Shown: one piece after another, positions 33,390-53,154 of the stretch
Numbering within the stretch: the stretch's first letter is position 1
How the letters are laid out: each line of letters starts with the position of its first letter
From: an uncultured Prevotellaceae bacterium
GTDB lineage: Bacteria > Bacteroidota > Bacteroidia > Bacteroidales > Muribaculaceae
Direction: 5' to 3'
NCBI GenBank assembly: GCA_900318865.1
Contig: ONMF01000011.1
Span: forward strand, 1 to 64,000
Length of the DNA: 64,000 nucleotides
Notes under the pieces: model-generated
Database searches by the model: none
Told to the model about the DNA's origin: nothing
What the model saw: the letters and a program-made list of their open reading frames with translations, nothing else
Translations under genes and position numbers: made by a program

Positions 33390-34010
33390 TTATTGATATT
33401 TGGGCGACGGGCCGTATTTGTTTTCGTTGCGGTCGCTATCCTGCAGGTTGTAGATGAGCAGGATGAGCATCAGGATGGAGTAGGCCAGCGAGGCAAGGCC
33501 CAGCGCCATGCCCATGGTGCCCATGCTTTCCTGGAGGCTATTGATGAAGCCCATCGGGTCGCTTTCAGCCAAATCCATAATGGGCCAGTAGATTTTGAGT
33601 GCGAGTGCTTGAAGCGCCAGATAGAAGAATGCCGTGATGCCCACGATGATGCCGCTGCGGCCGATGTCGTGCAGTCGTCGCGTCTGCACTGCCAGCAGCG
33701 GGCACAGCAGCGCCAGGCCCAGCAGCAGGCTGGCCACGAGCATGGTTTTCGTGCCGAAGAACATGAATATGAAGCTTGCGGCCCAGCCACAAAGCATTTG
33801 AAACAACTGCCAATACCAGAACTCACTTCGGCGTGCGCGGCCGGAGAAGTCGGCGTACTTGGCAAAGCACGTTTTCACGGCGTCGCCAAAGGTCATTTGC
33901 GGCAATTCGCGCACAGGCTGGTTGTAATAAGGGGGCTGTTGTTGCTGTTGTTGCTGTTGTTGTTGTCCGGGGTTGAACACCGGGGGCATGGGATTGTTGT
34001 TCGTTTCCAT
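33390..34010 (-). CDS. DUF805 membrane protein with polyglutamine N-terminus
   Basis: The 206-residue protein has a cytoplasmic N-terminal tail with ten consecutive Gln residues (about 16-25). The DUF805 core follows: MTFGDAVKTCFAKYADFSGRARRSEFWYWQLF, then four hydrophobic helices and the conserved RRLHDIGRSG between helices. DUF805 proteins are small inner-membrane proteins of unknown function. The tail ends DSDRNENKYGPSPKYQ, also typical of the family. It lies between tadA (46-base gap) and the DUF3142-like gene, which starts at the very next base. Confidence 0.9.
   Translation of the reverse strand: METNNNPMPPVFNPGQQQQQQQQQQPPYYNQPVRELPQMTFGDAVKTCFAKYADFSGRARRSEFWYWQLFQMLCGWAASFIFMFFGTKTMLVASLLLGLALLCPLLAVQTRRLHDIGRSGIIVGITAFFYLALQALALKIYWPIMDLAESDPMGFINSLQESMGTMGMALGLASLAYSILMLILLIYNLQDSDRNENKYGPSPKYQ
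33936..33965. repeat. CAA/CAG trinucleotide repeat encoding polyglutamine
   Basis: Thirty bases of alternating CAA and CAG codons (minus strand) encode ten Gln at the N-terminus of the DUF805 protein. Such tracts can change length by slippage without breaking the frame. Confidence 0.8.
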
Positions 34011-48096: not shown

Positions 48097-49017
48097 TCAG
48101 TCGTGGTTCAGGTCCACCACCAGGCCCTCGGCGGCCAGCCGTGTGGCCGGGAACACCTCCTGTGCCTCGCGCAGCAGCGGGGTCTCGTCGTCGTAGCGAT
48201 TAGAGAAATGCCCGATGATGAGCTGGCCCACTCCTGCGTCGCGGGCCACCGTGGCGGCGTCGCGGGCGGTGCTGTGATAGCGCGCATGGGCCTGGCGCGC
48301 GCAGTCTTGGGCGTAGGTGGCCTCGTGATAGAGCCAGTCGACGCCTTCCACGGCATGCACCACACGGCGCGATGGCATGGTGTCGCTGGCGTAGGCGTAG
48401 CTGCGGCAGGGGTCGGGCGGCAGTGTGAGCTCGGCATTGGGCACGGTGTGCCCGTCGGGGGTGATGTAGTCACTTCCCTGGCGCAGTGAGTTCATGGCGT
48501 GGTGTGGCACCTGCCAGCGCTGCACGGCCTCGGGCTTGATGTGCCGGAGCTTGGGCTTTTCATCAAATCTGAACCCCACAGCCGGCACGCGGTGCCGCAG
48601 GGGGAAGGCGGTCACCTTGATGGCGTTGTCCTCGTGGACGATGGCCGTGCGCGTGCCGATGACGTCCCATTCCACGGTGAAGGGCATCTCGCGGCAAAAG
48701 TAGTCGAGCATGCGGCCAAATTGTTCCTTGCCGTCGGCAAAGGTGTGGATGGTGAGTGTGCCGCTCTTGCCCAGCAGCGCCAGTGTCGACAGCAATCCCG
48801 GCAGCCCGAAGCAGTGGTCGCCGTGAAGATGGCTCAGGAAAATGTGCGTCAGGCGTGAGAACTTGAGGCGCTGGCGCCTCATCTCCAGTTGCGCCCCTTC
48901 GCCGCAATCAATCATCATCAGGTGGTCGCGCACGTTCAGCACTTGGCACGACGGCAGATGCCGCAGGGTGGATGTGGCCGAGCCGCAGCCCAGTATGTTC
49001 AGTTCAAATCGTGTCAT
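48097..49017 (-). CDS. rnz: Ribonuclease Z
   Basis: The 306-residue metallo-beta-lactamase-fold protein opens with ELNILGCGSATST. It has the zinc motif FLSHLHGDHCFGLPGLLS (HxHxDH) near residues 61-78 and further ligands in AYASDTMPS and IIGHFSNRY. It cuts precursor tRNAs at the 3' side of the discriminator base. This suits a genome in which the nearby tRNA-Ser lacks an encoded CCA. The predicted promoter lies inside the tandem repeat just upstream, with a leader of only a few bases. Confidence 0.93.
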   Translation of the reverse strand: MTRFELNILGCGSATSTLRHLPSCQVLNVRDHLMMIDCGEGAQLEMRRQRLKFSRLTHIFLSHLHGDHCFGLPGLLSTLALLGKSGTLTIHTFADGKEQFGRMLDYFCREMPFTVEWDVIGTRTAIVHEDNAIKVTAFPLRHRVPAVGFRFDEKPKLRHIKPEAVQRWQVPHHAMNSLRQGSDYITPDGHTVPNAELTLPPDPCRSYAYASDTMPSRRVVHAVEGVDWLYHEATYAQDCARQAHARYHSTARDAATVARDAGVGQLIIGHFSNRYDDETPLLREAQEVFPATRLAAEGLVVDLNHD

Positions 49018-49029
49018 GGTTCAGGAGTG

Positions 49030-49060
49030 CAAAGTTACGAATAAACGAGCGCAGAGCAAA
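49030..49060 (-). promoter_or_regulatory. Promoter of rnz carried by repeat copy 1
   Basis: On the minus strand TTTG (49060-49057), a 19-base spacer, then TAACTTTG (49037-49030), a perfect match to the Bacteroidota consensus. Only 12 bases separate the box from the rnz ATG, so the leader is very short. The -33 box, spacer and most of the -7 box lie inside the repeat; the last two bases (TG) of the -7 box are outside it. Confidence 0.75.
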
Positions 49061-49105
49061 ATGAGAAACGCAGTTTTTCATTTCTATGCCGAGTGAGAGT
49101 AACTT
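49032..49105. repeat. Promoter-bearing repeat, copy 1 (rnz-proximal)
   Basis: A 74-base unit with terminal inverted repeats AAGTTAC/GTAACTT. The centre holds an 11-bp hairpin, AAATGAGAAAC/GTTTTTCATTT with loop GCA and one G-T pair. Copy 2 follows after a 12-base linker (GGGCGGCAGCCA), with a period of 86 bases. Confidence 0.9.
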
Positions 49106-49117
49106 GGGCGGCAGCCA

Positions 49118-49191
49118 ACGTTACGAATAAACGAGCGCAGAGCAAAATGAGAAACGCAGTTTTTCATTTCTATGCCGAGTGAGAGTAACTT
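49118..49191. repeat. Promoter-bearing repeat, copy 2 (distal)
   Basis: The interior of copy 1 is repeated identically 86 bases on, including the hairpin and the -33 element. The left end reads ACGTTAC instead of AAGTTAC, so the minus-strand -7 box becomes TAACGTTG, one base from consensus. The trailing GGGCGGCAGCCA is present again. Confidence 0.9.
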
Positions 49192-49207
49192 GGGCGGCAG
49201 CCAGCAT

Positions 49208-52382: not shown

Positions 52383-52934
52383 TCAGTTGCAGCCTTCGCA
52401 TCCGTGGCAGTGGTCGTGCTCGCAGTCGCAGCCACAATCGCAGTGGTGGTGCTTGGGGGCCAACTCTTCGGGGGTGGCATCGCGCACCAGCAGCACGCGT
52501 CCGGCATACTTCACGCGCTCCCCGGCCAGCTGGTGGTTGAAGTCGAGCGTCACCTCTTTGTCGCCCACTTCCACCACGAGCCCGTCCATGCGGTAACCCT
52601 CTTCGGTCTGCATGGGCACCATCGCTCCGGGCTTGACCTTGGCCGCGTCAAACTTTCCGTCGATTTCAAAAATGCTCTTATCGAGCTTCATAACCAGGTT
52701 CTCGTCCTTGGGCCCGAACGCCTGGTCGGGCTCCAGGGTGAAGTTGAACTCAGCGCCCTGCTCCAGCCCGGCGATGCCGTCGGAAAAGCCTTGAATCATG
52801 CTGGGGTCATGGCCGAAGACGAAGCAATCGGGGTGCTCGCTTGTGAAGGAGTAGACCAGTGCGTCGGCATCGTCGGCCACAACGAAAATGTCGTAGGCCA
52901 GCTCAATGTATTTGCCAATTGTGATTTGTTCCAT
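52383..52934 (-). CDS. SlyD-like FKBP-type peptidyl-prolyl isomerase with metal-binding tail
   Basis: The 183-residue protein has a split FKBP domain with the IF (insert-in-flap) domain of SlyD: YDIFVVADDADALVYSF, FGHDPSMIQGFSDGIAGLEQGAEF, then FGPKDENLV and LDFNHQLAGERVKYAGRVLLV. The tail, HHHCDCGCDCEHDHCHGCEGC, is rich in His and Cys and should bind Ni2+, Zn2+ or similar ions. SlyD proteins fold proteins and deliver nickel to hydrogenases. Its promoter lies in the repeat at 52965, and it converges on adk. Confidence 0.92.
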   Translation of the reverse strand: MEQITIGKYIELAYDIFVVADDADALVYSFTSEHPDCFVFGHDPSMIQGFSDGIAGLEQGAEFNFTLEPDQAFGPKDENLVMKLDKSIFEIDGKFDAAKVKPGAMVPMQTEEGYRMDGLVVEVGDKEVTLDFNHQLAGERVKYAGRVLLVRDATPEELAPKHHHCDCGCDCEHDHCHGCEGCN

Positions 52935-52962: not shown

Positions 52963-52993
52963 CAAAGTTACGAATAAACGAGCGCAGAACAAA
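52963..52993 (-). promoter_or_regulatory. Promoter of the slyD-like gene carried by repeat copy 3
   Basis: On the minus strand TTTG (52993-52990), a 19-base spacer and TAACTTTG (52970-52963). The arrangement is the same as at rnz. The leader to the ATG at 52934 would be about 20 bases. Confidence 0.75.
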
Positions 52994-53039
52994 ATGAGAA
53001 ACGCAGTTTTTCATTTTTTATGCCGAGCGAAAGTAACTT
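52965..53039. repeat. Promoter-bearing repeat, copy 3 (slyD-proximal)
   Basis: A 75-base unit closely matching copy 1, with the same AAGTTAC/GTAACTT ends and the same central hairpin. It differs by a few bases (GCAGAAC for GCAGAGC, one extra T, GAGCGAAAG for GAGTGAGAG). Confidence 0.9.
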
Positions 53040-53050
53040 GGGCGCAGCCA

Positions 53051-53125
53051 ACGTTACGAATAAACGTGCGCAGAACAAAATGAGAAACGCAGTTTTTCAT
53101 TTTTTATGCCGAGCGAAAGTAACTT
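53051..53125. repeat. Promoter-bearing repeat, copy 4 (distal)
   Basis: A tandem copy of copy 3 with an 86-base period and an 11-base linker (GGGCGCAGCCA). As in copy 2, the left end reads ACGTTAC, weakening the -7 box to TAACGTTG. One further change (AAACGTGCG) lies in the spacer. Confidence 0.9.
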
Positions 53126-53154
53126 GGGCGCAGCCAGGTGTGCTCGTGGCGACG

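Follow-up and report, generated by a model that had tools for sequence, protein, structure and literature searches.

Several described families of small bacterial repeats resemble, in one or more respects, the element considered here. The BrickBuilt MITE of Porphyromonas gingivalis (PMC4596501) is also from the Bacteroidales and occurs in intergenic copies (about 20 for BrickBuilt), with internal tandem repeats, as the element here has tandem units, and with promoter elements, for which transcription capability has been reported in promoter-probe assays. The Correia elements of Neisseria, as presented in part of a review (PMC10969869), are likewise promoter-carrying miniatures that often lie just upstream of genes. 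REP/REPIN sequences, with TnpA-REP (PMC8266576, PMC3116915), are palindromic, extragenic and present in many copies, as is the element here. The IS200/IS605 family, e.g. IS608, shares with it single-strand hairpins and a target choice by base pairing, which for our element is a proposal; in IS608 the target is selected through pairing of its bases with those of the transposon (PMC5934647). In Bacteroidetes, the sigma-ABfr promoter consensus comprises TAnnTTTG at -7 and TTTG near -33 (PMC7366714).

The DNA analysed here is a 64-kb stretch (the window) of a 2.51 Mb Muribaculaceae genome (G000), compared principally with G044, a near relative or sister species. It contains two tandem pairs of a repeat unit, each just upstream of a minus-strand gene, encoding RNase Z in one case and a SlyD-like protein in the other. 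Our preferred reading, to which we give a probability of about 0.72 on the basis of sequence comparisons, is that the repeat is a copy of a non-autonomous mobile palindromic element of the Muribaculaceae, that inserts at -7 boxes and restores what is presumably an active promoter. The relevant features, all on the minus strand, are as follows.

48097-49017, minus strand: ribonuclease Z (NCBIfam NF000801, 302.6 bits, over the 252 cut-off)
49030-49115, minus strand: gene-proximal unit upstream of RNase Z (TRF, repeat search)
49116-49201, minus strand: distal unit upstream of RNase Z; the orthologous G044 site is without both units (repeat search, empty-site comparison)
52383-52934, minus strand: SlyD-like FKBP peptidyl-prolyl isomerase with a His/Cys-rich tail (Pfam FKBP_C, E=6.5e-5, over cut-off; 67.8 bits, below the 174 cut-off, with the SlyD model NCBIfam PRK10737)
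52963-53048, minus strand: gene-proximal slyD unit (86 bp), with intact -7 box (sequence, TRF, repeat search)
52963-52970, minus strand: -7 box TAACTTTG, of the sigma-ABfr type TAnnTTTG (sequence; consensus from PMC7366714)
52990-52993, minus strand: -33-type TTTG in the hairpin 3' arm, with the -7 box 19 nt downstream (sequence)
52991-53017, minus strand: central hairpin AAAATGAAAAAC-TGC-GTTTCTCATTTT, the stem sequence of which varies by locus (hairpin comparison, folding)
53033-53039, minus strand: left arm, AAGTTAC, the complement of the GTAACTT in the -7 box (arm/box comparison, folding)
53049-53134, minus strand: distal slyD unit, ending on the right in TAACGTTGGC, the unit-to-unit junction (sequence, TRF, repeat search)

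A repeat search of the window found exactly two 86-bp copies in each pair, at 52963-53134 (98% identical) and 49030-49201 (99% identical), and TRF agreed, calling 52963-53136 with 2.0 copies and a 97% match for the slyD pair and a 98% match for the rnz pair, so confirming the earlier note, which had described two 86-bp copies upstream of a minus-strand gene twice over. That note placed the slyD pair at 52963-53139; the start is correct, the end is about 5 bases too long. The spacing of the four copies is 86/3847/86. Over an 82-nt unit, identity within pairs is 98.8% (slyD) and 100% (rnz), and slyD and rnz units are 93-94% identical to each other. In both pairs the gene-proximal copy reads TAACTTTG and the distal copy TAACGTTG, in accord with the earlier claim that only the former keeps an intact box, and the proximal unit has the sigma-ABfr layout, i.e. 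TAnnTTTG at -7 and TTTG near -33. Elsewhere in the window, 33935-33966 is a short tandem array of the 9-bp GCTGTTGTT (3.6 copies).

The origin of this arrangement can be read from orthologous sites. At rnz, G044 is empty (CACATTTTTTA-TAACTTTGCAC) and G000 filled (CACATTTTTTATAA-[172 bp]-TTCG-TAACTTTGCAC), the longer alignment being CAGTTGCACATTTTTTA-TAACTTTGCAC in G044 vs CAGTTGCACATTTTTTATAA-TGCTGGCTGCCGCC...TTTATTCG-TAACTTTGCAC in G000; the slyD genes of the two genomes are 94% identical. At a second locus, L061, G044 reads GTTTTTTTCG-TACCTTTGTAG vs GTTTTTTTTG-TAA-CGTTGGCTACGCC...TTTTTTCG-TAACTTTGTAG in G000. Further filled/empty pairs, all ending at the native box, were found at a cupin gene, L064, lgt, L171, L183, L186, L187 and L188, with differences between G000 and G044 running in both directions. 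The precise presence or absence at orthologous sites, which is typical of a MITE, is thus seen with both flanks cleanly kept at rnz and L061 only, and with the gene-side flank at several more, where the left flank has diverged. At rnz the element is missing from the outgroups G012 and G003, at lgt from G012 and G013, and at L171 and pepD from G012; the insertions at these sites are therefore gains. Comparison of these sites establishes, at the level of sequence, that existing promoters receive the element precisely at their native -7 box (TAnnTTTG).

Filled alleles have TAAC or TAAT in the box, also at sites where the native one has TATC or TAAA; the element therefore brings its own TAnn, up to the shared TTTG. 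TAA or TAAC is present on both sides at rnz and L061, which, given the microhomology, may be a duplication or an element-borne box. Empty boxes at type 1 sites are exactly TAACTTTG in five of eight cases, vs 11 of 77 native boxes on contig C11. The comparison with empty sites also means that the distal TAACGTTGGC is the junction of TAA(C) with the left end of the element; the upstream copies are thus not decayed promoters, as the earlier note had implied for the distal copy.

In G000 as a whole, sequence searches and retrieved stretches, on which all genome-wide counts rest, give about 65 matches in about 41 clusters of one to four copies, i.e. the short, non-coding unit (about 75-86 bp across the family of elements) has the many dispersed copies expected of a MITE, and the earlier suggestion of a dispersed, promoter-like unit holds, the promoter function being presumed from the layout. 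Both array size and copy number are lower bounds, since contigs end inside or close to arrays (L069, at the end of G000:C2; G044:C28; G044:C60). Scans with the pattern CTCRNYTTGCACTAATTTTG and with a further pattern gave 72 and 55 hits, respectively, vs none for either reversed control. The earlier note held that finding single copies to be the rule, and the pairs to be assembly artefacts, would weaken its case; one detected copy is indeed present in 23 of 41 clusters, but two to four in the other 18, and both chance and an artefact are contradicted by the about 65 matches and by a slyD pair in the same place in a relative that was sequenced independently, a roe deer rumen MAG (L040/L088).

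Of the 41 clusters, 39 are followed by a codon-supported reading frame in the same orientation. The downstream genes, named from N-terminal sequences, are mixed housekeeping genes, including ddl, valS, fur, rarA, dnaG, kdsB, fumarase and sbcD. The proposal that the unit specifically co-regulates RNase Z and SlyD is not supported: about 40 housekeeping genes with no relation to one another have the unit in front of them, and in the sister species it is present at slyD and absent from rnz. On contig C11, the one sampled in this respect, TAnnTTTG was found in 91 upstream regions, and 14 of these carry the element, or roughly one detectable promoter of this kind in six; much of the basal transcription in these rumen and gut bacteria may thus have been rewired by it. 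Matches at E <= 1e-4 were found in 57 of 297 Muribaculaceae genomes, in nine of 30 sampled genera, the nearest named record being a Muribaculaceae MAG from roe deer rumen; no match was found among 16 genomes from other families of the order. A phage or plasmid origin was rejected, no match having been found in the phages, plasmids and viral contigs searched, as was a structured RNA family, an Rfam search of the unit having given no match. A main role as intrinsic terminator of the upstream gene was likewise set aside, many clusters lying between divergent genes. Several elements (L117, L054, G044 L127, L138) have a second intergenic repeat next to them, which is GC-rich (CTCTCCCCCTAAGTTAGGGGGAGTGGCCGAAGGCCGAGGG and variants).

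Toward the gene, the parts of the unit are, in order, left arm, GC-rich stretch, hairpin, TTTG and -7 box. The stem of the hairpin is 8-13 bp long and differs among loci, at least five unrelated sequences being represented; of 84 G000 units, 70 have TTTG at 19-20 nt upstream of the box, vs 4% in shuffles. There are two main types, type 1 units ending in ...GCTCGCTTATTCG-TAACTTTG and type 2 units in ...GCTCAACTTGCAC-TAATTTTG, and a third type ending in CAC-TATCTTTG; a long variant has about 100 bp (TTAACTTCGTTTTCCTCCTTCTTGCAAGGCATAGTCCAAGCGAGC...) between hairpin and right end (L043; G044 L136, L143, L188). As to terminal inverted repeats, only the arms AAGTTAC/GTAACTT are seen near the unit ends.

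The left arm reads as the box in reverse complement, and the two co-vary. Among 71 scored units from the window genome and its nearest relative, which share descent and hence are not independent events, the box/arm pairs GTAACTT/AAGTTAC (36), CTAATTT/AAATTAG (32) and CTATCTT/AAGATAG (3) occur without a single cross-match; 44 further units with one of these three boxes have no exact arm. Other species add CTATTTT/AAAATAG and CTATATT/AATATAG, making five co-varying box types in all. Folding of five units as single-strand DNA gave a single long hairpin, in whose base stem the box is paired with the arm (z-scores of -5.0, -3.6 and -3.2 for types 2 and 3; weak values of -0.7 and -2.0 for two type 1 units). 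Covariation of a mid-stem hexamer in type 2, at a level reached by nine of 2000 shuffles, is suggestive only.

Within arrays, units are head-to-tail with an exact period. Copies of the slyD pair are closer within a species (98.8% in G000, 97.6% in G044) than between species (91.5-95.1%), bearing out the earlier idea of local homogenisation, and at L054a both copies share one hairpin in G000 and another in G044. It can be inferred that arrays are homogenised, by conversion or re-insertion, with hairpin cassettes probably swapped too.

The uniform position and orientation at promoters, the conserved spacing of TTTG and TAnnTTTG, and the presence of the core across genera would also be consistent with a vertically inherited host promoter module, i.e. 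a regulon, in which one regulator binds the palindrome upstream of -33 and selection keeps the copies without mobility. Such a regulon is unlikely, however, given that orthologous sites differ by precise presence or absence, that one regulator would not recognise so many unrelated hairpin sequences, and that the downstream genes have no common theme. A supercoiling-sensitive switch, with the -7 box in the base stem of a cruciform, such that folding shuts the promoter, would account for the arm following the box in five box types and for the predicted fold; as the main role it is very improbable, leaving the empty and filled sites unexplained, with weak type 1 folds and with many type 2 left arms mismatched (AAATCAG). 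A DNA-invertase switch acting at GTTAC...GTAAC was also considered; no copy with an inverted interior stood out among the units viewed.

A selfish palindrome of the REP or IS200/IS605 kind, moved by the Y1 transposase of the genome and with only incidental promoter activity, would fit the hairpins, the lack of clear terminal inverted repeats, the head-to-tail copies, insertion beside a short fixed target and the base-pairing precedent of IS608 (PMC5934647). G000 indeed has one IS200/Y1-type transposase-like gene, in single copy (L117 1481-1929; G000:C27 about 121300-121750), but this is flanked by its own unrelated palindromes (CCCCAGGTTTCGGCGCATTACTGCGCCAAACCTGGGG), and not by the element, as it would be in a REP/RAYT arrangement. 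Moreover, Y1 genes do not track the element: the element-rich G100, G104 and G119 (94-99% complete) are without Y1_Tnp, and G015 has nine Y1_Tnp genes and no element match. An IS200/Y1 transposase is hence unsupported as an obligatory partner, and a non-exhaustive search found no autonomous partner or mobilising enzyme. With every cluster sitting at a promoter, and no GTAG tag noticed when units were viewed by eye, this explanation appears quite improbable.

By sequence comparison, each insertion leaves a box at the right end of the element, so that a complete -7 box is re-created beside the gene, and the hairpin region places TTTG at -33. If the repeat is, as we prefer, a mobile element that rebuilds promoters, the rebuilt promoter would work, and selection would keep the gene-proximal box. 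Less surely, the element may move as a single strand in folded form, with the left arm paired to the -7 box in an IS608-like manner, a proposal that is speculative. The fuller scenario, in which the element finds the -7 box by pairing with its own arm, inserts, rebuilds the promoter and so can spread harmlessly through housekeeping promoters, with the arm evolving along with the box type, is tentative and on balance doubtful. The covariation of arm and box makes target choice by base pairing directly testable. Were the scenario true, it would represent a safe-haven strategy, in which the landing site is a core promoter box and each insertion leaves the gene a working promoter; none was described in the papers searched. 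No account of such an element was found in the open-access literature, most subscription journals being outside that search.

The differences from the described systems are as marked as the likenesses. BrickBuilt has IS5-family-like terminal inverted repeats, contains a 23-nt repeat and is located at 49-591 nt from genes, whereas the element here consists of 75-86-bp units ending in a -7 box. The Correia elements are from a different phylum with a different promoter type, and the passages of the review consulted (PMC10969869) mention neither insertion at a -7 box nor arm/box covariation. REPs are 20-40 bp in length with a GTAG or CGTC tag (PMC3733652), compared with 75-86 bp here, with no such tag apparent by eye and no partner gene found. 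In contrast to the IS200/IS605 family, the unit is without a transposase, and a link to such an enzyme is unsupported. What sets the element apart from BrickBuilt, Correia elements and REPs is its place in the -7 box together with the matching arm, and from its sequence it appears to be a new variant among promoter-carrying miniature mobile repeats.
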